NCBI GenBank assembly: GCA_030055525.1
Contig: JASFYJ010000003.1
Coordinates: 62,001-126,000 of the forward strand
Length of the DNA stretch: 64,000 nt
From: Archaeoglobales archaeon
GTDB taxonomy: Archaea; Halobacteriota; Archaeoglobi; Archaeoglobales; Archaeoglobaceae
Reading direction: 5' to 3'
Below the pieces are notes generated by a model that was given only the letters and a program-made list of their open reading frames with translations, searched no databases and had not been told where the DNA came from. Below are positions 21,227 to 50,390 of the stretch, in pieces. A program made the translations under genes and the position numbers. Each line of letters opens with the position of its first letter. The stretch's first letter is position 1.

Positions 21227-21928
21227 TTATAAGTTATCCGCCCAAAATTCAAAAATTTTGCATGCCTCCTCATAGCCTACCTCTAGCACGCAATCTATGA
21301 AGGCAATGTGACCTTTTATTGCTCTTATCCAGACTTCTTTATCAACTCTGAAGCCTTCGAGCTCTCTTTTTGCTAGTTCGTAAAGCAAGTCTATAGGCCT
21401 TCTAAAGTTATACAAAACGACTGTGTTCACTAAAAAATCATTTTTAAGTCTATTTTCAACTTCCGCCGGCAGGTTAAGACAGGCGTTTCTATTTTTTGCG
21501 TTCATTTTTATTTTTGAAGCTATATCCTCATAACTGTACTTCCGTTCCTCCAAATCTCTCAAAATAATCTCCCTCCACTCCTCAACATCAATTTTTCCAA
21601 TTTTGGATTTCAAAACGAGTTTTGCTAATTCAATTTGCGTATCTTTTATCTCCCTAGATTTGGTACTTGGAAGATAACAGTACAAAGACACTTTCTCCTT
21701 CCAGCAGAAATCAAACAAACACCTACTTGCCTTCAGATCTTGAGTCCATCCAAAATCTTCTGGGGGTAGAGAGGCATTTGCTATGCATGGTTCAAAGTCC
21801 TCTGGGAGATCCATAAAAATTGCTTCAAAATTAGATGCCTTCAAATAATCTAAAATTTTCTTCCTGTTCCAATGGACATTTACGGAGACGAAGTTAACAA
21901 GCAACTTCACAAAATAATTAGCATCCAA
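21227..21928 (-). CDS. Uncharacterised protein in the taw1 operon
   Basis: I do not recognise this 233-residue protein. The N-terminal third (VSVNVHWNRKKILDYLKASN then EAIFMDLPEDFEP) resembles in layout the start of TraB/DUF5682-type proteins, but this is weak. The rest is helical and charged. It contains seven cysteines (CI, CLFDFC, CY, CL, CV, CK). It is 6 bases upstream of taw1 and 7 bases downstream of btuF-like, so it is within a leftward operon. No function is proposed. Confidence 0.7.
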   Translation of the reverse strand: MDANYFVKLLVNFVSVNVHWNRKKILDYLKASNFEAIFMDLPEDFEPCIANASLPPEDFGWTQDLKASRCLFDFCWKEKVSLYCYLPSTKSREIKDTQIELAKLVLKSKIGKIDVEEWREIILRDLEERKYSYEDIASKIKMNAKNRNACLNLPAEVENRLKNDFLVNTVVLYNFRRPIDLLYELAKRELEGFRVDKEVWIRAIKGHIAFIDCVLEVGYEEACKIFEFWADNL

Positions 21929-21935
21929 AAAAAAT

Positions 21936-22898
21936 TTAATTTTCGATTTTTACGCCATGAATAAGTCTTGCCAATTCAACCGCTGCATCTGCAAGTCGGT
22001 ATGAGGGGCGAGAGATAATATCTGCATCAACAACGTAAACTCTACCGTTCTTTACAGCGTTAGTGTTTTTAAGCAAAGGTTCGTTGATAACCCACTTGTA
22101 ACTTACATTTTCACCTCCTCCCATTCCAGTTCCGCTACTTACAATTATAACATCCGGATTTGCCGCTATCAGATTTTCAACACTCACAACTCTCCAACCA
22201 TCGAAATCAAAGACGTTTTTAACTCCGGAGATTTCGATGAGTTCATCTATAAATGTGTTCTTTCCGCTAACGTAAATCGGATCATGCCAAACAATGTGTA
22301 CAACTTTCAACCTTTCTTTTCCAGCTACAGCTTTCTTTACGGCCTCTATTTTTCTCGTCATCTCATCTACAAGCTTTTTAGCTTCCTCTTCATGTCCAGT
22401 TAGTTTCCCTATGATGATGATCCTCTCGGCAACATCGCTTATGGTTTTGGGATCGAAACCAACAACTGTCAGGTTAAGTTCTCTCATTCTCTCAATTATT
22501 TCCATACCATTTCCATAGGCAGCTAAAACAAGATCGGGTTTTAATGCTACAACCCTTTCGATGCTTACTGTAGTATATCCTCCAACAGTCTGAATCTTTC
22601 CGGCTTTTCTCAACTCCAAAACTTCTGGAGGATAGTTGCAGTAATCAGTAACACCCACAACTTGCTTCCAAGCACCGATTGCAAAAAGGATCTCCGTATT
22701 GCTTGGGGCGAGAGAAACTATCCTCTCAGGAACCTTCTTAATTTCAACTGCATATCCTGTATCGTCCATTATCTTCAACACATTTTCAGTAGTTACGGTT
22801 ACATTTGTCTCCCCATTTACTTTTACCTCTTTATCAGAAACGCAAAGAGGAAATAGAGCAATCAGCGTTAGAAAACATAATATCAACCACCTTTTCAT
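21936..22898 (-). CDS. btuF: BtuF-like cobalamin ABC transporter substrate-binding protein
   Basis: The protein captures vitamin B12 (or possibly another tetrapyrrole or siderophore) outside the cell. Residues 1-21 are a signal peptide ending near the Cys-Val-Ser junction. The TroA-like fold follows, with the family hallmarks PERIVSLAPSNTEILFAIGA, VVGVTDYCNYPPEV and KPDLVLAAYGNGMEIIERM. No permease or ATPase genes are adjacent. It is next to two DUF4430 surface proteins, which favours a cobalamin role. Confidence 0.85.
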   Translation of the reverse strand: MKRWLILCFLTLIALFPLCVSDKEVKVNGETNVTVTTENVLKIMDDTGYAVEIKKVPERIVSLAPSNTEILFAIGAWKQVVGVTDYCNYPPEVLELRKAGKIQTVGGYTTVSIERVVALKPDLVLAAYGNGMEIIERMRELNLTVVGFDPKTISDVAERIIIIGKLTGHEEEAKKLVDEMTRKIEAVKKAVAGKERLKVVHIVWHDPIYVSGKNTFIDELIEISGVKNVFDFDGWRVVSVENLIAANPDVIIVSSGTGMGGGENVSYKWVINEPLLKNTNAVKNGRVYVVDADIISRPSYRLADAAVELARLIHGVKIEN

Positions 22899-22904
22899 TT
22901 TTGT

Positions 22905-25340
22905 TCACCTCTTCTTACGATAATTTCTTTTATTCAGTAGATATGCTACTGCCAGCAATCCAGCGATTGCGAAGATCGCTTCAAAGCCCGGTATTCCACC
23001 ACTAGGCGTTGGAGTTGGTGTTGTTGGCTTTGGAGTGGTTGGTGTTGGAGTTGGCGTTGGTGTTGTTGGAAATGCAGCGGTAGTTACATTGATTTCAGAC
23101 GCTAATCGCTCTTCCTTAAACTTTAAGGGTTTTATAGGATACGGTTTTCCAAGTAAAGCAATTAAAGCACTTGCAGTCATGAAACCTGGGTTATCTGTAG
23201 TATAAGCAGTATACTTAAAATAGCCTTCCTCAGTTTGCAAACTGATCAAGTGATCTACTACGCTTATGTTATCTTTTTTCCACTCTCTTGGGTTTATTCC
23301 CACAGCGATCAGGGCTTGAATAGTCCACGAATCGCTTGCTGCATTGCTTGGAGAATTTCCAAAATACCTAACACCACCATCCTCATTCTGTCCAAGCTTA
23401 AGATAATCTAAGGCTCTTTTTATTACTTCAGAATCAAAAGGCTCCCCGGCAGCTACTAAAGCCTGTATAGCCGCTGCTGTATCGTCAAAATCGCTTTCCT
23501 CTCCAACAGCCCAAGAAAATCCACCATCTGGATTTTGTTGCAACTTAAGCCACTCTAAAGATTTATTTACATCCTCTCCTACAACAGAGAGGGCCATAAT
23601 TCCCCATATTGTTGTATAAACGAAGTCTCCAATTTGACCGTTCTCCTTAACTCTCTGCTTCAATTTTGAGACCAAATCTACTTCAGCAAAGTTTCTTGGA
23701 TCTTCTCCAGCAGCGTAAATAGCTAATATCGTTCTGGCATAATCTGCTGTCCCCATTTTTGGCAGTTCATCTTTTATGTGCTCTTTTATATAATCTAGGG
23801 GGTTTTTACCGTTCTTTAACCAGCTTCTTGGATCTTCTTTAGCTGAAACTATAGCCATTATTGCCCAAGAAGTCTTTGCAATGCTTTCTTCTTCGCCAAC
23901 ATTTGCAAAGCCTCCGTTGCCTTTCTGTAAACTTTTAAGATAACTCAAAGCCTTTTTTATTCTGTAATCATCCTTATCTAGCGGAAAGTCTTTCCATTCT
24001 TTTGCAACTACAAAAACGCTGAAGTTTTCGACTAAAACTTTGTATAAAACCGATTCGTTGGCTTTTTCCACAACTTCAGAATTCAACTTGACCCACTCTG
24101 TTTCGTACTTGTAAAAACTCACATCTCCCCACTCCTTTGGGATCCTGAAGTAGATAACTGCCGATACGTCAGACCGATTCAGATTTATATCAAAACATGA
24201 ATAAATTGTTGCATAAAGCAAATCCGGCAGTCTGGTTTTTTCAATTTTCACCTTTAAATCAACCTCTTCAGCACTTTTGAAAATTATCTTGAATATTGGC
24301 ACTTCTTCAATGTTCACTTCCATTTCGTAGTTCTCTTTTATTCTTAATTCTCTCTCGAACTTTTTAGTCACAGTTTCGCAGACAATTGAAATCGTTTTTG
24401 TTGTGGAAGCTGAAAGCATACTTCCATCGAACACAGTTAAAGTTACGTTGTATGTTCCGCATTTCTTGTACGTATGTGTAGTGTTGCAATCTCTAGAAAT
24501 TTTTCCATCTCCAAAGTCCCACAAACAGCCATCTATATATCCATCGGGGTCAATTGATTCGGAATAAAATTTTATTTCCTCTCCAACTTTTGGGTTTAAC
24601 GGTGAATAGCTGAATTTTGCAACAGGTGGTGCGTTTTCAGCCCACTTCTTGTAAACAAGTATATTGTAGTTGCTGTCCACATATATTTCGATCTTGTAAA
24701 TTGCAGTCTCTGGTGTCTCACTCATGCTTCTTGAAAAGTACCAGATTACTTTATCCCCTGAAGAGACCCTGTAATTTGCAGCTGCAACTCCAGGCATCGG
24801 TTTTTCCGGATAATTTACCCAGTACATCCACCCCGAACCTTCCCCAGCATAACCAGCACAGATTTCATCGACACAATCTACAAATATCCCCCAGTCTGTA
24901 GCCTTCAGACGATAGTTGAATCCTTTAATCTTGGATGCGATCTCAAGTACACCTAAAGCTGTTCTGTAGTCTATGCTGTACTCCTTTCCATCCACGATCT
25001 TTTTGAATGATCCAGATGGCAAGTAGTTGTCGTAAGCAGCCGAACCTATTGAAGGTTTTGTACAGTAGTTTATATCTAGAGTTCTTTCAACTCTTTCTTC
25101 ACCACTTATCACTTCTATTTTCAACTTTCCTGGCAAATAGACTTTGAAATTTGCAGGATTCGTAGAATTAGCTTCGTTAAATACAGGATACCCATCGTTC
25201 AATCTGAAAATTACAAAAGAGTTTGGAGTTGTGTAAACTTGAACCGTATCTCCAACGCATCTTCCATCGATCGCTACTTCCAAGGCACATGAAGGTATCA
25301 AAAATACAAAGGTGCTCAGAATTACTAACAAAGATCTCAT
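22905..25340 (-). CDS. Large surface protein: DUF4430, PKD, PGF-pre-PGF, prenyltransferase-like repeats, PGF-CTERM
   Basis: The protein has 811 residues with a signal peptide. Approximate domains are DUF4430 (110-240, SGWMYWVNY), PKD (245-325, LWDFGDGKISRDC), a PGF-pre-PGF domain (330-450), then alpha/alpha-barrel repeats (455-720) with SLQKGNGGF, QQNPDGGFSW and GQNEDGGV. It ends in a Thr-Pro stalk and a PGF-CTERM tail (GGIPGFEAIFAI then RKKR), which implies archaeosortase processing and surface anchoring. DUF4430 plus an alpha6/alpha6 barrel is the domain pair of vitamin-B12-binding transcobalamin. The adjacent BtuF-like gene strengthens that reading, but binding is inferred. Confidence 0.85.
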   Translation of the reverse strand: MRSLLVILSTFVFLIPSCALEVAIDGRCVGDTVQVYTTPNSFVIFRLNDGYPVFNEANSTNPANFKVYLPGKLKIEVISGEERVERTLDINYCTKPSIGSAAYDNYLPSGSFKKIVDGKEYSIDYRTALGVLEIASKIKGFNYRLKATDWGIFVDCVDEICAGYAGEGSGWMYWVNYPEKPMPGVAAANYRVSSGDKVIWYFSRSMSETPETAIYKIEIYVDSNYNILVYKKWAENAPPVAKFSYSPLNPKVGEEIKFYSESIDPDGYIDGCLWDFGDGKISRDCNTTHTYKKCGTYNVTLTVFDGSMLSASTTKTISIVCETVTKKFERELRIKENYEMEVNIEEVPIFKIIFKSAEEVDLKVKIEKTRLPDLLYATIYSCFDINLNRSDVSAVIYFRIPKEWGDVSFYKYETEWVKLNSEVVEKANESVLYKVLVENFSVFVVAKEWKDFPLDKDDYRIKKALSYLKSLQKGNGGFANVGEEESIAKTSWAIMAIVSAKEDPRSWLKNGKNPLDYIKEHIKDELPKMGTADYARTILAIYAAGEDPRNFAEVDLVSKLKQRVKENGQIGDFVYTTIWGIMALSVVGEDVNKSLEWLKLQQNPDGGFSWAVGEESDFDDTAAAIQALVAAGEPFDSEVIKRALDYLKLGQNEDGGVRYFGNSPSNAASDSWTIQALIAVGINPREWKKDNISVVDHLISLQTEEGYFKYTAYTTDNPGFMTASALIALLGKPYPIKPLKFKEERLASEINVTTAAFPTTPTPTPTPTTPKPTTPTPTPSGGIPGFEAIFAIAGLLAVAYLLNKRNYRKKR

Positions 25341-27202
25341 CTTACCTCTACCTCGAATGCATCACTCCAGATTATGATGTTTTCTGGGTAATTTGAAAGA
25401 TAGTAAACTCCAGCGTAGAGTTTGTATTTCCCAGCTTTAACTTGTTGAGGTACCGGAATGATCACAGGAACTTTCAGATCACCTTTGACATTAAAGACGC
25501 TAATGCCAGCGATCGAATCTCCATCGCACGTTCCACTAACAACTAAAACATAACAACCATCTACGGCTGTCATGTCGATGAAGACGGTTATATTCCCGCC
25601 CCTCTGCCCAATGTTCGTCGAGATGGAGTTTATTGAAACAGGAACAACTTTAACGTTGATCTTTATCATCCTATTGGCATTTTCAGGAGTTTCGGATCCT
25701 GTACCATATATAAGGTAGATGATGTCACCGTCTCCAACTTCTTGTTGATTGATTCCAGACAATGGCATTTCGTTATTTAAATAATATATCCAATAATTCT
25801 CTCCAAGCCCCATAACTGAAGTTAAAAGCAGACCATAAGTTTCATACCATTTATCGCTCAACTCGTAGCTGAAATTGATAAAAGCTCCATCGACTTTCGA
25901 ATTCAGGCTTGCAAAATGCAAAGCTCCCAAAACCGAAGTTTTATTCACTTTATATTCCTTATCGTTAATGATCTCAGTATACTTTCCTGGAGAGATGATG
26001 ACGTTGAATTCGATGACCCCCTCGGAAGTGAAACAGTAAACGTAACCGTTGTCGGCACCGATATAAAGCCTGTTGTCTGCTAGATATGGAGAGGACATTA
26101 TGTTGTAAGAACTGTACTCATCGGGTGGAACCAGCCTGTAAGTCCAGAGGATCTTTCCGTCTGAAGCATTTACAGCATAAAGGGTTCCTTCTCTAGTATT
26201 GGTGGCGAAATAAACTACTCCATTCGCTATGGCTGGAGAGGAATCGATCTTTCCATTCGCTGTTATGTTCCAACATTCTTTAAAGCTGGTAAGATTTATG
26301 CAATACAGTTTCCCGTCTCTTGATCCAAAAAAAGCTTTATCCCCTTCAACGGCTGCGCTTGAAGTAGAGCCTTTCATACCGATTTCAGCCTTTATATATC
26401 CCGATTCGTTGTAGATGTATAGCTTTTCTTCGCTTGAAAAGATCAAAATTCTCTCTCCGTTTAGATCAACCACCGTTGGAGTGTTTGTTATCTGTGAATC
26501 TAGGCTGGCGTTCCACAGCTCATCTAGATTTTCGTTTACACAGTAGATCTTGTTAACTCCACTGGAGTTTCCTGCAAAAAAGATTTTACCATTGCTTGCA
26601 GCTGGAGACGTGTAAGGGTTTATAGTTCCGCCCGTGGAAAATTTTGCAATCACATCGCCATCTAAACTTATCTTCCAGAGTGTTCCGTTTGTATGAGTTA
26701 AAACATAAACGCTATTGTTGTAAATGATTGGAGAAGATGCGATACCATAGTAAGATTTCTGCTGATCCAAGAACAACTCTTTTTCTACCCTTCCATCCTT
26801 AGCGTTTAAAATGTAAAAGTATCCGTAATAAAGCCATCCTTCGCCGCTGTAAACCATCCCTCCGATGTAGATTTTCTCGCCGTAAATTGCAGGCGTTGAT
26901 GCGCCCTGAATTGTTTCATTTCTCCATAAGATCTCTCCACTTTTCGCATCTATTGCGTACAATCCCGGTTTCCACTCTCCCCAGCCATACCAGTTTGATA
27001 CAAAAACCTTTCCATCGATGTAAACAGGCTGCGCTCCAACTAAACCGCTCAGCTCTGTTTTCCACTCAACCTTCGGGATTATCTTTTCGGATGTGAAGTT
27101 ACCTAAATGTTCAGCGTTTCCCTGAAACATGTTCGCATCTGCTACACTGATCATAAAAAATACTGCAAATAGGCACAACAACCTTGAAATCAACAGCCGC
27201 AT
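25337..27202 (-). CDS. Secreted PQQ-type beta-propeller protein with DUF4430
   Basis: From the ATG at 27202 the protein has 621 residues and a signal peptide (LLISRLLCLFAVFFMISV). Residues about 30-400 hold seven to eight PQQ-like propeller blades, with recurring patterns such as LYAIDAKSGEILW, VYCVNENLDELWN and LYCINLTSFKECW. A DUF4430 domain follows (about 405-525, YWIYYLNNEMPLSG), then a C-terminal beta domain. It has no PGF-CTERM tail. It overlaps the 811-residue gene by 4 bases and so is made with it. It is probably part of one extracellular complex. Confidence 0.82.
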   Translation of the reverse strand: MRLLISRLLCLFAVFFMISVADANMFQGNAEHLGNFTSEKIIPKVEWKTELSGLVGAQPVYIDGKVFVSNWYGWGEWKPGLYAIDAKSGEILWRNETIQGASTPAIYGEKIYIGGMVYSGEGWLYYGYFYILNAKDGRVEKELFLDQQKSYYGIASSPIIYNNSVYVLTHTNGTLWKISLDGDVIAKFSTGGTINPYTSPAASNGKIFFAGNSSGVNKIYCVNENLDELWNASLDSQITNTPTVVDLNGERILIFSSEEKLYIYNESGYIKAEIGMKGSTSSAAVEGDKAFFGSRDGKLYCINLTSFKECWNITANGKIDSSPAIANGVVYFATNTREGTLYAVNASDGKILWTYRLVPPDEYSSYNIMSSPYLADNRLYIGADNGYVYCFTSEGVIEFNVIISPGKYTEIINDKEYKVNKTSVLGALHFASLNSKVDGAFINFSYELSDKWYETYGLLLTSVMGLGENYWIYYLNNEMPLSGINQQEVGDGDIIYLIYGTGSETPENANRMIKINVKVVPVSINSISTNIGQRGGNITVFIDMTAVDGCYVLVVSGTCDGDSIAGISVFNVKGDLKVPVIIPVPQQVKAGKYKLYAGVYYLSNYPENIIIWSDAFEVEVR

Positions 27203-27244
27203 AATGAAACTACACATCAAAAATAAAAAATTTTTGTTCAAAAC

Positions 27245-27856
27245 TCAAGCATTTTGGATGATATCAAGAAAAGATCTTGCAGCTAAATAAACATCAGCAT
27301 GCATGGCTATCGCCGAGATTACAGCCACACCAAAGGCTCCAGCTCTTAAAACTTCCTTGACGTTCGAATGATTTATACCTCCAATTGCAATTACTGGAAC
27401 CTTTGTAGATGAAACGATATTTTTAAATTTTTCAATTCCGAGCGGTTCTTTAGCGTCTTCCTTGCTTTTAGTTGCAAAAACGGGTCCAACACCTAAATAA
27501 TCTGCATATCTTTCAGCTTTCATCGCTTCTTCAACACTATGAACCGAAACACCTAAAATTCCACCAAAAATATCTCTTGCAGCATCAAAAGGTAGATCCT
27601 CTTGGCCTAGATGGACTCCATCAGCGTCACTCGCCAAAGCTATGTCTAGTCTGTCGTTTACTATAAAGAGGGCATCGTAATCCAAAGTTAGCTTTCTGAT
27701 CTTCTTTGCCACCTCGTAAATTTCTTTTGAACTCATACTTTTTTCTCTAAGCTGTATAGCTCTTACACCAGCTTTAAGCACTTTTTCTGCAAGTTCTTCA
27801 TGCTTTCCAAACCTTGAATCCGTTATAAAATAAATTTTCAGCTTTTCAAACATCAC
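27245..27856 (-). CDS. thiE: Thiamine-phosphate synthase
   Basis: ThiE joins HMP-pyrophosphate and thiazole phosphate. The TIM-barrel motifs are present: VRAIQLREKSMSSKEIYEV, FIVNDRLDIALASDADGVHLG, GVSVHSVEEA, LGVGPVFATKSK and PVIAIGGINHSN. The length of 203 residues is normal. It is transcribed leftward, divergent from the Trm5-family gene. Confidence 0.93.
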   Translation of the reverse strand: MMFEKLKIYFITDSRFGKHEELAEKVLKAGVRAIQLREKSMSSKEIYEVAKKIRKLTLDYDALFIVNDRLDIALASDADGVHLGQEDLPFDAARDIFGGILGVSVHSVEEAMKAERYADYLGVGPVFATKSKEDAKEPLGIEKFKNIVSSTKVPVIAIGGINHSNVKEVLRAGAFGVAVISAIAMHADVYLAARSFLDIIQNA

Positions 27857-44940: not shown

Positions 44941-46212
44941 ATGAAAGTTACACCTTGGGAAGTAGAAGGAGTAGTAGATTATTACAAGCTGATGGATGAA
45001 TTTGGTATCAGTAGTTTTTCGACACTAGTTGATAGAATTCCGAATCCGCACAGGTTTATTAGGAGGGGAATAATCTTCGGACATAGAGATTATGATCGAA
45101 TCATCGATGCTATTCGATCAAGAAAAAGCTGGGCTGTTATGTCAGGTTTCATGCCATCTGGTAGCGCTCATTTCGGGCATAAGATGACGATGGAAGAAAT
45201 AGTTTGGCATCAGAAAATGGGTGGAATGGCTTTTGTGGCAATCGCTGATATGGAGGCGAATTTTGTTAGAGGATTGAGTTGGGCGAAAACGAGGGAAATA
45301 GGTTTTCAGTATATAAAAAGTATAATAGCGCTCGGATTAGATAAAAATAATTCTATAATATATTTCCAATCTGCTTCTAGGAAAGTGAAAGATCTAGCTT
45401 TTGAGTTGTCTAAGGAAACAAATTTCAGCGAGCTCAGGGCAATCTACGGATTTGAAAGTGAAACCCCAATCGCGAGATTTTATATCCCACTTGTCCAGGC
45501 AGCGGACATTTTGCAACCTCAACTGAAGGACTTTGGTGGCCCAAAACCTGTAGTTGTTCCAGTTGGTGCAGATCAAGATCCGCATATAAGGCTGACGAGG
45601 GATTTAGCAGCTAGAAGTAGCATTTTTTCATTTGAAAAAATTGAAAACGGTGTCAGGATTAGAAGCAGAAAAGGCGTAAACTATCTTGAAGCTTTAAAAG
45701 GGTTGAACTTCGAAAAGAAAATCTACGAGGAGCATTTAGATGTATTTGGTGACCAGAGAGAGATAGAAGATGCTGTTAGGTGTGTCGAGGTTGAGATAGG
45801 TGGCTTCGCTTTCGTACCGCCATCCTCAATTTATCATAAATTCATGACAGGTCTTTTAGGAGGAAAAATGAGCTCAAGTAAACCTGAAAGCTACATATCT
45901 TTGTTTGATAAGCCGGAAGATGGAGCAAAGAAGGTTGGCAAAGCCTTAACCGGTGGAAGGGCTACAGCAAGTGAGCAGAGACAACTTGGTGGTGAACCGG
46001 ATAAATGTGTGGTTTTTGAACTTTTTGCATACCATCTGATAGAGGACGACAGAGATTTGGCAGAAATAAAGGAAAATTGTTTGTGCGGAAAAACTATGTG
46101 TGGAAATTGTAAAAAACTAGCTGCTGAACTGACTAAAAACTTCTTGAGTGAATTTCAGGAGAGAGTGAACGAAGCAGAGTCGAAACTCGATGAGTATGAA
46201 ATAATCTATTAA
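44941..46212 (+). CDS. trpS: Tryptophanyl-tRNA synthetase
   Basis: This class I synthetase has the HIGH-like motif in SGFMPSGSAHFGHKMT and KMSSSKPE near residue 315. The length of 423 residues is typical of archaeal/eukaryal-type TrpRS. Its C-terminal part has a Cys-rich segment, CLCGKTMCGNCKK. It converges with pelota (4-base overlap). Confidence 0.95.
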   Translation: MKVTPWEVEGVVDYYKLMDEFGISSFSTLVDRIPNPHRFIRRGIIFGHRDYDRIIDAIRSRKSWAVMSGFMPSGSAHFGHKMTMEEIVWHQKMGGMAFVAIADMEANFVRGLSWAKTREIGFQYIKSIIALGLDKNNSIIYFQSASRKVKDLAFELSKETNFSELRAIYGFESETPIARFYIPLVQAADILQPQLKDFGGPKPVVVPVGADQDPHIRLTRDLAARSSIFSFEKIENGVRIRSRKGVNYLEALKGLNFEKKIYEEHLDVFGDQREIEDAVRCVEVEIGGFAFVPPSSIYHKFMTGLLGGKMSSSKPESYISLFDKPEDGAKKVGKALTGGRATASEQRQLGGEPDKCVVFELFAYHLIEDDRDLAEIKENCLCGKTMCGNCKKLAAELTKNFLSEFQERVNEAESKLDEYEIIY

Positions 46213-47240
46213 ATTTCGAACCTCAAAAGTGCAGCGATTCCACCTAGGCTTTCCAATCTTTTTCCAGGTTCAAATTCGCTGCTCATTATGACAATTTTTC
46301 CACCCATCTGCTCTACATCCTTCATAAAGCTATCTATATCCCAGCTTTCCCTCGCTTTAAATAGAAACTCGTCAGTTATCAGCAGAACATCTATGGCCCC
46401 GAATTCATAGGCTTTTTTAACTTCTTTTACACCATAAGCCACTCCTCTGCCTTTTGCAATTCCGGCCATCAACTTTTCGATGTATTCAGCTTCCTCGCTC
46501 AGCCTAATTTCTCCAACTATTCTGTCTAGGACCTTTCTTCTTAAAACTTCCGTGAAGCCTCTGATACCTATGGAAGAGGTGTCGACTATTATTGCTTTTT
46601 TGGACATCTCTGGGTTCTTTTCTCTAAGAAAATCCAAAAAGTCTTTCTTGGTAAATCCCGGGCCTGCAATAATTAGATATTTGAACTCGATTGTTTCAAG
46701 CTTCGAAGCAACTTCTCCAAAAAATTCTCTTCTTCTATCCCCAAAATTCTTCGAATAGCTAAATGAAACATCAAAAACCTCTTCAACTCCCCAGTGTCTT
46801 AAAACCCCAGCTATTGCATCGCCTTCTTCTATTGTTAAAATCAAAACTTCAGGCCGTTTCGAGGCCTCAACAGCATATCTTAACCTTTCTAACTGTTCTT
46901 TCTTCCATTTTCTTTTTATTATGCTTAACTCTTTTCCAGGGGCTATGTTTAGGGTATGGTATCCAGATTCGTCAACTCCAGCGACAATTTTTCCAATAAC
47001 TCTAACTCTGTTGGCATACCTGTGAAACTCAACTTTTTCGACTTCCACGCCAATTCTGACTGTAATTAGCTCTTTATCACTTCTAAGCTTGTCGGAACTT
47101 TGAGAAGCTCTTTTTGTCAGGGAAAAGACTACATCTCCTTTCTCTATCAAGTACTTTAGATGCCAGAGATCGTCTAAGCTTTCTGGAACAATTTTTATCT
47201 CTCCTTCTTCACCCTTCAGATTTTCCTCGACTATCTGCAT
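46209..47240 (-). CDS. pelA: Pelota/Dom34 ribosome-rescue factor
   Basis: Pelota recognises stalled ribosomes with aEF1A or ABCE1. The 343-residue protein begins MQIVEENLKGEEGEIKIVPE, then DDLWHLKYLIEKGDVVFSLT, as in the family. Its central domain carries AIIVDTSSIG and the C-terminal domain ends with GGKIVIMSSEFEPGKRLESLGG. The start overlaps the activase gene by 32 bases. Confidence 0.95.
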   Translation of the reverse strand: MQIVEENLKGEEGEIKIVPESLDDLWHLKYLIEKGDVVFSLTKRASQSSDKLRSDKELITVRIGVEVEKVEFHRYANRVRVIGKIVAGVDESGYHTLNIAPGKELSIIKRKWKKEQLERLRYAVEASKRPEVLILTIEEGDAIAGVLRHWGVEEVFDVSFSYSKNFGDRRREFFGEVASKLETIEFKYLIIAGPGFTKKDFLDFLREKNPEMSKKAIIVDTSSIGIRGFTEVLRRKVLDRIVGEIRLSEEAEYIEKLMAGIAKGRGVAYGVKEVKKAYEFGAIDVLLITDEFLFKARESWDIDSFMKDVEQMGGKIVIMSSEFEPGKRLESLGGIAALLRFEI

Positions 47241-48000
47241 ACCTCACCTTCGCAATCAGTGCTGCTCCTAGGGCCCCTATAATTTGTGGTTCTTCAGGTA
47301 CTTTTATCTCTAGCCCTAATTCTTTTTCAAGCGCTCTCTTTACACCACTGTTTTTAGCAACTCCGCCTGTTAGCACAACATCTGGCTTAACTCCAACTCT
47401 TTTTGCCATCGCTGCTATACGCGACGCTATTGCATTGTGAACACCAGCAACTATGTTTTCAACTTTTTCACCACTTGCCAAATAGCTTATAACTTCGGAT
47501 TCGGCAAAAACTGTACATGTTGAGGATATACTTACCGATTTTTCGGCTTTTTTGTCCAGTTCCCCGAGCTCGGAAACTTCTACCCCTAAAGCCGACGCCA
47601 TGACCTCCAGAAACCTTCCGGTACCTGCAGCGCACTTGTCGTTCATGACAAAACTTTCAACATTGTTGGAGACTGCGATAACCTTGCTATCTTGCCCTCC
47701 TATGTCGATGACGGTTCTAGTAGTGGGTATCAGGTATTTGGCTCCTAAAGCATGGCATGTTATTTCAGTAACTCTATCTTTTGCGAATTTTACCTTGTTT
47801 CTTCCGTATCCAGTTGCAATCACGACTTTAACGTCTTTTTCGCTTAAATTAGCCTTCATCAAAGCATTTCTGTAAACCATCTCTGCAACGTCTTCGATTT
47901 TTGGAGTTACTCTAGAAATTTCGTAGGCTAGAATTTTATTTTCATCTATGATTACACATTTTGATGTTAGAGAACCTATGTCTATACCGGCGAAGATCAT
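47209..48000 (-). CDS. hgdC: Activase of 2-hydroxyacyl-CoA dehydratase/benzoyl-CoA reductase type
   Basis: This ASKHA ATPase passes a low-potential electron to the dehydratase. The motifs are FAGIDIGSLTSKCVI (phosphate 1), IDIGGQDSKVI (phosphate 2) and VVLTGGVAKNSGVK. The two ligands of the bridging 4Fe-4S cluster are Cys123 (NDKCAAGTGRF) and Cys162 (STCTVFAESE), spaced as in HgdC. It lies after the two dehydratase subunits with a 4-base overlap. Confidence 0.92.
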   Translation of the reverse strand: MIFAGIDIGSLTSKCVIIDENKILAYEISRVTPKIEDVAEMVYRNALMKANLSEKDVKVVIATGYGRNKVKFAKDRVTEITCHALGAKYLIPTTRTVIDIGGQDSKVIAVSNNVESFVMNDKCAAGTGRFLEVMASALGVEVSELGELDKKAEKSVSISSTCTVFAESEVISYLASGEKVENIVAGVHNAIASRIAAMAKRVGVKPDVVLTGGVAKNSGVKRALEKELGLEIKVPEEPQIIGALGAALIAKVRYADSRGKSEG

Positions 48001-49169
48001 GTTAGCATCTCAAGAAACGCCTCCAATCGCGTTTCAATTTGTGCCTGGCTAAATGCTCTTGAATCCACCATATCCGCTTCTATAACTACAGATGGAACGC
48101 TTATCATCTTTTGCAGCTCATACTGGCCAAAGGAGTAGGGTTTACAACTTCTGTTAGAGTGAATTACGACTCCATCTACATCGTAGACATCTATCAGATC
48201 ATTTATCGCTTCAGCCATACGCTCTAAACCTACGTTGAGGTATATGTATATGTATGTTTCCGCTATACTGCCCAATATGTCGCTTTTATCTTTAACTATC
48301 ATCCAGCTCCATGCGTTGGTGTATGTGTCAGCAACAACGCAAGCCTTTCGAGATGCAAAAAACTCTCCAAGCCATCTTAGCTGGTACCATATTGGAATGT
48401 TATCCCAAAGAAGTCTTATTCTTTCATCATCAACAGCTGCAACACCATTTTTGATCCTCTCATCCAATTCGCTTTTCATTTCCGAGTAAAAGCTTATTGG
48501 ATACTCCGTTCCACGCAAACATACTATTGGTGCCATGTTTATGAAAGCATCGAAACACGTTAGCGGTGATGGTTTATTTCTTGCTGTAAGTAGGACGTTT
48601 TTGTAAGCTTTTACGCCAGCAAGAGCCATCATTAAAGTTTTTTGAAGTTTCCCATCGTCAAGTTTCTCTCCCGTAAGTTTCTCCAAGAAGTCCATGAATT
48701 CTACAAGCTGATCTCTTACATAGATGATATAGCTCTCTTTCACATCCTTCCTAACGAAAGGTGTGTCCAGAACAAATAGAGGCACCTTAAATATCCTGCT
48801 TAGAACTTCGTACCATTTAACAACTGTATTGCAGATGTTGTTGCATGCAAAAAGAAATGTTGGTTTAGGTAATCCACCAATGGGGCTAGATTGAGCTAAA
48901 ACGCACCCTATATCGCATCTAGCGTAAGAACAAAGATCCCTCGAAAAACCAATTTTTTCTGCATATTCCGAATAATTTGGTCCAAGTTTTGCAGCACCAA
49001 TTAGTGCTGCATGGTTTTCTGGATAAGCAGGATATATATCCATTGCGTAAAGAATTTCAACGGGAGCTCCACTTGTTACCCAGGCAACGTTTCTTGCTGA
49101 ATGTCCCATCATGTAATAGCCAGCCATAAGCTGGCGCATCCTTTCATTGGATCTTAACTTCTTCAGCAT
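47997..49169 (-). CDS. 2-hydroxyacyl-CoA dehydratase/BcrB-type subunit (B-like)
   Basis: The 390-residue protein belongs to the HgdB/BcrB/C family (2-hydroxyglutaryl-CoA dehydratase D-component). FeS-ligand cysteines are seen in CSYARCDIGCVL and FACNNICNTVVK, and the family signature HSNRSCKPYSFGQYELQ is near the C-terminus. Together with the next gene and the activase it forms the two-subunit enzyme. It could dehydrate a 2-hydroxyacyl-CoA or reduce an aromatic acyl-CoA, which sequence alone does not decide. Confidence 0.85.
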   Translation of the reverse strand: MLKKLRSNERMRQLMAGYYMMGHSARNVAWVTSGAPVEILYAMDIYPAYPENHAALIGAAKLGPNYSEYAEKIGFSRDLCSYARCDIGCVLAQSSPIGGLPKPTFLFACNNICNTVVKWYEVLSRIFKVPLFVLDTPFVRKDVKESYIIYVRDQLVEFMDFLEKLTGEKLDDGKLQKTLMMALAGVKAYKNVLLTARNKPSPLTCFDAFINMAPIVCLRGTEYPISFYSEMKSELDERIKNGVAAVDDERIRLLWDNIPIWYQLRWLGEFFASRKACVVADTYTNAWSWMIVKDKSDILGSIAETYIYIYLNVGLERMAEAINDLIDVYDVDGVVIHSNRSCKPYSFGQYELQKMISVPSVVIEADMVDSRAFSQAQIETRLEAFLEMLT

Positions 49170-50143
49170 GATATCACCTCGTAAAAGGCTTCTAGTCTTG
49201 TTCTAAGCTGTTCCAACGAAACAGCTGGGAATTCAATCTCTAAAAGCATGGTCTTTTTTCCCATCTCTTCAAGCTCTTCTTTTAACTGCGGATAATCGAA
49301 GAAGTGCGGATCACAGAATTTCATCAGTAAAAAGATAACTCCGTTGCAGTCTTTTGATAACTCCAAAATTCTTCTGAATCTCCTCTCTCTTTCATAATGC
49401 TTTGTGGGACATTCAGCTTTGTAGAGGTATTTTTCGGCTAGATACCTGAAACCGTCTTCTATCGAGTTTATATCTATCTCTGGATACTTAAAGGAGAAAA
49501 ACCTTGTTCCTGTGCAAAGATCATCCTTTATTGCAAATCCTACCTCCTCGAAAAGCTTGAAAACATTTAAAAATGGGCAAACACTGCCAGTAATTAATAC
49601 TTTTGGCTTATCTCGTTCTTTTTGTGGAACTTTAATCATTTTTAAGGCCTCTTTTACGCTCATTTCTTGAACTCTAAGAATTAGCTCGTAGTCGGGCTTT
49701 ATGGAAAACAACTCTTCAAGTTTTTTTTCGAGCTCTTTGTAAAGTTCGATGCTCTCTTTTAGAGATTGTAGAGTTATATCTCCACCCCAAAGCTTCAGAG
49801 TGGTTGCTAAATCTCTGATCTCCGATATAAGAAAGTCTTTACTCTTTTCGTCGACTCTAGTCGGAAATTCAAAATTATATACCCTCATTTTTGTATTTCT
49901 CTCCCAAATGTCGGCTAATCTCATCAAAGTGTCGCAACTTCTCGTGAATATAACTCCCTCCAGCTGAAGTTCTGCTCTTAAGGCTCTCTCTAAAGATCCT
50001 CTCGCCTGAGAGCAGGAATAACTTTGAATGTGTGCATTTGCAATTCCTGTAATGGACTCTTTAGCGAGAATTCTAAATGGGGAAAAACCAGCAGCCTCGA
50101 TCAACTCTTTTGGGGTAAAGGTACAGAAGTACCCAACTCGCAT
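49163..50143 (-). CDS. 2-hydroxyacyl-CoA dehydratase/BcrC-type subunit (A-like)
   Basis: From the ATG at 50143 the protein has 326 residues, starting MRVGYFCTFTPKELIEAAGF, a family hallmark. Cysteines in SYSCSQARGSLERAL and FTRSCDTLMRLADIW are candidate cluster ligands, and VLITGSVCPFLNVFKLFEE follows. A TTTTTAACTATTTATT element about 25 bases upstream suggests a leaderless operon start. It is the first of four leftward genes ending in pelA. Confidence 0.85.
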   Translation of the reverse strand: MRVGYFCTFTPKELIEAAGFSPFRILAKESITGIANAHIQSYSCSQARGSLERALRAELQLEGVIFTRSCDTLMRLADIWERNTKMRVYNFEFPTRVDEKSKDFLISEIRDLATTLKLWGGDITLQSLKESIELYKELEKKLEELFSIKPDYELILRVQEMSVKEALKMIKVPQKERDKPKVLITGSVCPFLNVFKLFEEVGFAIKDDLCTGTRFFSFKYPEIDINSIEDGFRYLAEKYLYKAECPTKHYERERRFRRILELSKDCNGVIFLLMKFCDPHFFDYPQLKEELEEMGKKTMLLEIEFPAVSLEQLRTRLEAFYEVISC

Positions 50144-50390
50144 GAGAATATTGAAGAATAAATAGTTAAAAAAGATTTCCATCCCTTGTCTGGTTTAAAG
50201 TATCCTTCTTATTTTTATCCTTTTTGGCAATAAAAATCTTGAAAATTTAGTTTTATTATTTATTGTTTAAGTAAAATTTTTATTTGGCATTTTAATTTTC
50301 GTATCCTATCTACGTTAAAAAAGGCTACAAGTAAACTTCTACAGTTATTAACAGAAATAATCAACTTTCGACTGATTAACTGCAGTAAAA

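Follow-up and report, generated by a model that had tools for sequence, protein, structure and literature searches.

The closest described systems are the animal cobalamin carriers transcobalamin, haptocorrin and intrinsic factor, and a set of prokaryotic surface proteins reported by Burroughs et al. in 2007. In transcobalamin the ligand is bound by the SLBB-type domain first and by the barrel afterwards (PMC11107200). The passages of the 2007 paper considered here describe surface proteins that carry a toroid and an SLBB domain, including propeller versions and Ig-fold versions from Archaeoglobus; B12 scavenging was predicted from gene context in bacteria, and another metabolite was suggested for archaea because archaea make B12 (PMC1796856). 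Here we analyzed a three-gene cluster in 64,000 nucleotides of an Archaeoglobales archaeon (contig JASFYJ010000003.1 of assembly GCA_030055525.1, positions 62,001 to 126,000; the whole stretch is called the window), which encodes a propeller protein (PROP), a barrel protein (BARREL) and a BtuF-like protein. We propose, with a probability of roughly 75%, that the cluster belongs to an archaeal cell-surface system for the capture and import of corrinoids (B12, a cobamide or cobinamide).

Domains and folds of the three proteins

The three genes form a tight minus-strand run, nearly head to tail in the list of open reading frames (ORFs): PROP (25337..27202; 621 residues from the likely ATG at 27202, or 634 from a TTG at 27241), BARREL (22905..25340; 811 residues) and the gene of the BtuF-like class III substrate-binding protein (21936..22898; 320 residues). 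PROP overlaps BARREL by 4 bp, and 6 bp separate BARREL from the BtuF-like gene, in agreement with an earlier note on this DNA, which had both genes overlapping or adjoining a BtuF-like gene. The grouping is not a chance one, since the only two DUF4430 (SLBB) matches in the 1.56-Mb genome are PROP and BARREL (both over the curated PF14478 cut-off in the genome search) and the order PROP-BARREL-BtuF recurs across dozens of archaeal genomes.

BARREL carries, behind a signal peptide, a DUF4430 domain (residues 127-203, E 3.8e-07), a PKD_4 domain (236-319, E 2.3e-15), toroid repeats at about 577-715 (SQHop_cyclase_C, E 1.4e-13; Prenyltrans, E 3.9e-11), a Thr/Pro stalk and a PGF-CTERM anchor (783-802, E 1.2e-08), so that all three elements named in the earlier note (DUF4430, alpha/alpha-barrel repeats and PGF-CTERM) were matched in Pfam. 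A further beta domain, with a weak PGF-pre-PGF match in NCBIfam, lies between PKD and barrel at residues 332-446. In an AlphaFold2 (AF2) model, built like that of PROP on alignments of the loci collected in this analysis (mean predicted local distance difference test, pLDDT, 85.3), residues 459-729 fold into 12 helices that make up a complete alpha6/alpha6 barrel. Superposed with VIA-align, this barrel matched intrinsic factor (2pmv; Z 21.6, 235 aligned residues, 2.9 A), transcobalamin (7qbf; Z 21.2, 246 aligned, 3.2 A), squalene-hopene cyclase (Z 26.2) and drimenyl diphosphate synthase (Z about 25); as modelled, it shares the fold of the cobalamin carriers, which are not its closest relatives. 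A full-length Foldseek search of BARREL was dominated by multi-domain alpha-2-macroglobulin alignments with a root-mean-square deviation above 20 A and was set aside in favor of VIA-align; the thioester domain of alpha-2-macroglobulin was ruled out, BARREL having no CGEQ thioester motif.

In sequence, the best solved match of the SLBB profile was transcobalamin-1 (E 0.0015), the alignment of WGPYITCIQGLC with WGxFVxCIxGxC showing a common strand and cysteine pair. Against three transcobalamin-2 sequences the same profile aligned collinearly over 64 columns at 30% identity (hhalign, E 0.0035, probability only 9.3), and for the barrel the profile-profile alignment with transcobalamin covered a single repeat region (E 0.0039, probability 8.5); the human transcobalamin query is identical to the solved chain 2bb5 at every position. 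These matches support homology with transcobalamin, although they are no proof by themselves.

PROP is a secreted protein with no C-terminal anchor, in which a PQQ_2/BamB-type propeller (Pfam, E 3.4e-28) is combined with a DUF4430 domain and a C-terminal beta domain, the pairing of beta-propeller and DUF4430 that the earlier note had described. The DUF4430 match reached 22.4 bits (E 1.7e-04) for the window ORF, just below the Pfam cut-off of 23.8, and 27.4 bits, above that cut-off, in the genome search. Its AF2 model (mean pLDDT 92.2; predicted template modelling score, pTM, 0.86) places the propeller as eight-bladed and BamB-like (Z 35.9 against E. coli BamB, VIA-align), and it superposed on Rv3035 from the FecB complex (9p3f) with Z 37.8 over 348 residues. 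The mycobacterial FecB-Rv3035 complex is functional (PMC12802301) and might, purely by analogy, offer a precedent for docking of PROP to the BtuF-like protein.

The BtuF-like protein matched Peripla_BP_2 (Pfam, E 2.9e-45). In E. coli BtuF the B12 pocket is formed by Y50, W66, W85, F162, F168 and W196 (PMC5269720); in our alignment these positions fall on or beside Y86, Y108, Y128, W204, Y209 and W235, four of the six archaeal aromatics (86, 108, 209 and 235) being directly aligned and two (128 and 204) one position off. Position 209, Tyr here, is Trp in 15 of 19 orthologues, and Trp204, Trp235, Glu114 and Glu241 are present in all 19. The two glutamates align with E. coli E72 and E202, which we take to be the docking glutamates of that protein. 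Trp235 is found neither in the two other binding proteins of the same genome nor in the haem protein PhuT, as judged from the alignment. Because Cys19 is invariant in the 19 orthologues and sits in a canonical lipobox in several, the protein is probably lipid-anchored.

Linkage to BtuCD, CbiZ and cobalamin riboswitches

Three clear FecCD permeases are encoded in the genome, two of which have their own binding protein (L001/L009 and L002/L008). The third lies on contig C1 and lacks one; behind it come an ATPase gene and CbiZ (PF01955, E 3.6e-40). In NCBIfam this permease and ATPase match B12/corrinoid models best, all of them below the model cut-offs. In Archaeoglobi relatives the two parts are joined, and BtuC-BtuD-CbiZ-PROP-BARREL-BtuF is contiguous in L042, L044, L045, L046, L049, L050 and L056. 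The same uninterrupted run is present in nine loci of a second, named set (L068, L070, L075, L085 and L088 among them), a set not independent of the first, as some of its loci come from the same genomes. BtuC directly follows BtuF in a second arrangement (L051, L054, L057 and L058). The presence of CbiZ does not discriminate, as it is over cut-off in 46 of 60 genomes; its adjacency does. TrpB-like, EamA, OTCase and NAD synthase genes beside the cassette in relatives were set aside as unrelated housekeeping genes. The NAD synthase gene near the BtuF-BtuC pair of L051 (14548-16452, plus strand) contains an intein with Hint and LAGLIDADG matches.

Across the 43 archaeal barrel loci compared, BtuF is adjacent to the barrel in 29 and fused to it in nine, a propeller is nearby in 38, and either BtuC or BtuD lies within 6 kb in 24; contig ends truncate some of the remaining loci. 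Barrel and BtuF form one polypeptide in Methanomicrobia (L094-L097, L099-L102 and L107) and also in L060; Pfam bore out both domains in L060 and in L097, and the SLBB domains there sit on the preceding propeller protein. Barrel, SLBB and BtuF thus stay together even as their distribution over chains changes between fused and split arrangements. A split clamp would be mechanistically acceptable, because the domains of transcobalamin, when separated, can still come together around cobalamin, an association that needs the ligand (PMC5599065). Two of the loci deserve separate mention. L060 (5864-12774) encodes a propeller with four DUF4430 domains, the barrel-BtuF fusion and a second propeller protein, and L104 (DYFG01000055.1) carries the cassette on a contig labelled Candidatus Nitrosotalea, which may be misbinned, as the other archaeal matches are from Archaeoglobi or methanogen-related.

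An Rfam scan of 20 loci with bacterial relatives of the barrel found a cobalamin riboswitch in 13, in 12 of which the barrel ORF comes directly behind it (in L120 the called start of the barrel ORF overlaps the aptamer). A typical genome has a handful of cobalamin riboswitches, so this frequency should lie far above chance. Several of these loci also encode energy-coupling factor (ECF) transporters: in L110 a riboswitch precedes DUF4430-SLH, DUF4430, barrel, CbiQ and ECF ATPase; in L108 and L111 the order is DUF4430, CbiQ, ECF ATPase, barrel and ECF S component; and in L113 it is barrel, ECF parts, CobU, histidine phosphatase, CobT and CobS. An Anaerolineae locus (L114, 943-3693, plus strand) encodes, directly behind a cobalamin riboswitch, a 917-residue protein with several alpha/alpha toroid stretches, possibly tandem barrels.

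Proposed function and competing explanations

We infer a capture system in which BARREL, held at the surface by PGF-CTERM, and the secreted PROP would together present two SLBB domains and one alpha6/alpha6 barrel, corresponding to the two domain types that make up the transcobalamin clamp. As in transcobalamin, the corrinoid would first be bound by an SLBB domain and then covered by the barrel; the ligand would next be released to membrane-bound BtuF, with the propeller perhaps holding the parts together, and be imported by BtuCD, whose locus on contig C1 lacks a binding protein. Inside the cell, CbiZ would trim the corrinoid to adenosylcobyric acid, and CbiB and later enzymes would rebuild it, following the known archaeal CbiZ-CbiB salvage route (PMC3541065). 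We regard it as slightly better than an even bet that, more specifically, the system parallels the intrinsic-factor route in prokaryotes with the domain order reversed: an anchored SLBB/toroid clamp and an SLBB-propeller would hand corrinoid directly to BtuF, to which the barrel is fused in methanogens, also in organisms that make corrinoids themselves. The earlier note had proposed surface B12 scavenging that feeds BtuF, a proposal strengthened by the contiguity of BtuC-BtuD-CbiZ with the cassette in Archaeoglobi relatives (the BtuCD co-occurrence it had suggested looking for), the barrel-BtuF fusions, the bacterial riboswitches and the BtuF aromatics. The neighboring transporter is BtuCD-like; the note had said that one for, say, haem or molybdate would refute its proposal.

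Several observations nonetheless weigh against this proposal. The corrinoid riboswitch that the earlier note had suggested searching for was not found in the window or in six further archaeal stretches (the BtuCD-CbiZ contig of the same genome, three Archaeoglobi cassette loci, one Methanosarcinales locus and one barrel-BtuF fusion locus), and the cassette of this genome stands apart from BtuC-BtuD-CbiZ, which lie on another contig, C1. The BtuF-like protein scored 115.5 bits against the enterobacterial (E. coli-type) BtuF model, whose cut-off is 234 bits. For the barrel, terpene cyclases outscore transcobalamin both in sequence and in fold, and its profile search gave no significant transcobalamin match; the profile-profile probabilities with transcobalamin quoted above are low. 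The BARREL model has good domains, but with a pTM of 0.56 the packing between them is uncertain. BARREL also differs from transcobalamin and intrinsic factor in having the SLBB domain N-terminal and the barrel C-terminal, and from transcobalamin in having two extra domains between them, the earlier note having overlooked this reversed order, the PKD domain and the beta domain at 332-446. Finally, the host genome has CbiD (a weak, split match), CbiG and CbiB and therefore probably makes corrinoid itself, so that salvage would add to synthesis. The CbiD of this genome (G000:C16:61728-62369) and those of its nearest relatives are very divergent, matching in two weak pieces that reach 57 bits together vs. 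more than 110 bits in most other Archaeoglobaceae.

These de novo genes would also fit a surface machinery of the same build with another cargo, such as haem, F430 breakdown products, a siderophore or another large metallo-tetrapyrrole or complex. Burroughs et al., in the passages considered, left this open since archaea make B12, and the class III binding proteins of BtuF's family also carry haem and siderophores; however, CbiZ lies inside the cassette, Trp235 and the aromatic set of BtuF are not shared by the genome's two other binding proteins or PhuT, and cobalamin riboswitches precede the bacterial barrel relatives, and we therefore judge a different cargo unlikely. A little less likely still is that PROP and BARREL bind no corrinoid and only position or protect BtuF, as Rv3035 does for FecB. 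The superposition of PROP on Rv3035 (9p3f, PMC12802301) and the PKD and other beta domains of BARREL would suit such scaffolds, but both proteins contain a transcobalamin-like SLBB domain, which is also present in bacterial operons linked to a riboswitch or to ECF components, among which a BtuF-like protein was not observed.

The remaining alternative is that the barrel acts at the surface as a class II terpene cyclase or a similar prenyl-processing enzyme. The class II motif DxDDT stands at residues 617-621 and is kept in all archaeal barrel rows aligned, the best solved relatives are squalene-hopene cyclase and drimenyl diphosphate synthase, and single-domain class II cyclases exist (MstE, for example). 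However, all seven aligned bacterial barrels keep D617 and T621, and four of them, three behind a cobalamin riboswitch, have Asn in place of the second Asp at residue 619, so the cyclase acid is probably not what the barrel family conserves; moreover, BARREL is secreted and anchored outside the cell, and the cassette context is one of corrinoid uptake, with no lipid genes. We consider a cyclase very improbable.

Neighboring genes and comparison with known systems

Upstream in the same run lies thiE (27245..27856, minus strand; thiamine phosphate synthase by Pfam), which is probably not part of the system, as the cassette of relatives has no thiE. Downstream, 7 bp beyond the BtuF-like gene and just ahead of a TYW1-like gene, is a 233-residue ORF with no Pfam match (21227..21928, minus strand), which was not seen alongside the cassette in the relatives' loci compared; a translin-like gene and others follow the TYW1-like gene. 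With thiE upstream and these genes downstream, the complete run does not amount to an operon dedicated to B12 in this genome. Elsewhere in the window (46209-50182, minus strand), subunits resembling 2-hydroxyacyl-CoA dehydratase/benzoyl-CoA reductase and an activase adjoin pelota.

If the reading modelled on the intrinsic-factor route is right, Archaea, which have no outer membrane, would gain a high-affinity extracellular receptor stage for B12, and the question of the ligand left open in 2007 would be settled. No characterized prokaryotic toroid/SLBB B12 carrier was found in the open-access literature searched, so a heat-stable archaeal version would be a good subject for studies of binding and structure; it would also bear on how the animal carriers arose and on corrinoid exchange within anaerobic communities.

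Like transcobalamin, haptocorrin and intrinsic factor, BARREL has an alpha6/alpha6 barrel (Z 21 to 22) and an SLBB domain in one chain, and with haptocorrin its SLBB shares a WGPY strand and C-x4-C. Unlike transcobalamin, it is prokaryotic and membrane-anchored, with a barrel nearer to terpene cyclases and a corrinoid-binding role that is putative. The BtuF-like protein resembles E. coli BtuF-BtuCD as a class III binding protein with aromatics at or beside the pocket, two docking-type glutamates and BtuC/BtuD linkage in relatives; it differs in falling below the curated cut-off, in probably being a lipoprotein, and in that surface proteins, not a receptor in an outer membrane, would be its partners. 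BtuG, which to our knowledge has neither SLBB nor toroid, is not among the matches listed for PROP, whose propeller is BamB-like, and this excludes nothing. In the part of the account consulted, the BtuG lipoproteins of gut Bacteroides likewise capture B12 at the surface for a linked importer, but hand it over to outer-membrane BtuB (PMC6143338). The mycobacterial FecB-Rv3035 pair (9p3f; PMC12802301) also joins an eight-bladed propeller to a Peripla_BP_2 protein, but its role is in building the cell envelope together with AftB and not in B12 uptake.

Also among the closest are the SLBB systems of 2007, which, in the passages considered (PMC1796856), combine SLBB with an alpha/alpha toroid on either side and a second SLBB paralogue in the operon, just as the present locus has two SLBB proteins, a 12-helix barrel and surface proteins with signal sequences or PGF-CTERM. 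The transporters there are of the CbiO/CbiQ type, and BtuCDF with CbiZ here; the hosts there usually do not synthesize B12, whereas de novo genes are present in the host here. Those passages describe no barrel-BtuF fusions in methanogens. What the present analysis adds to that paper is the link to BtuCDF and CbiZ, the fusion of the barrel with BtuF and the counts of riboswitches, and the linkage and fusion argue for corrinoids as the archaeal cargo too, with the transporter named.

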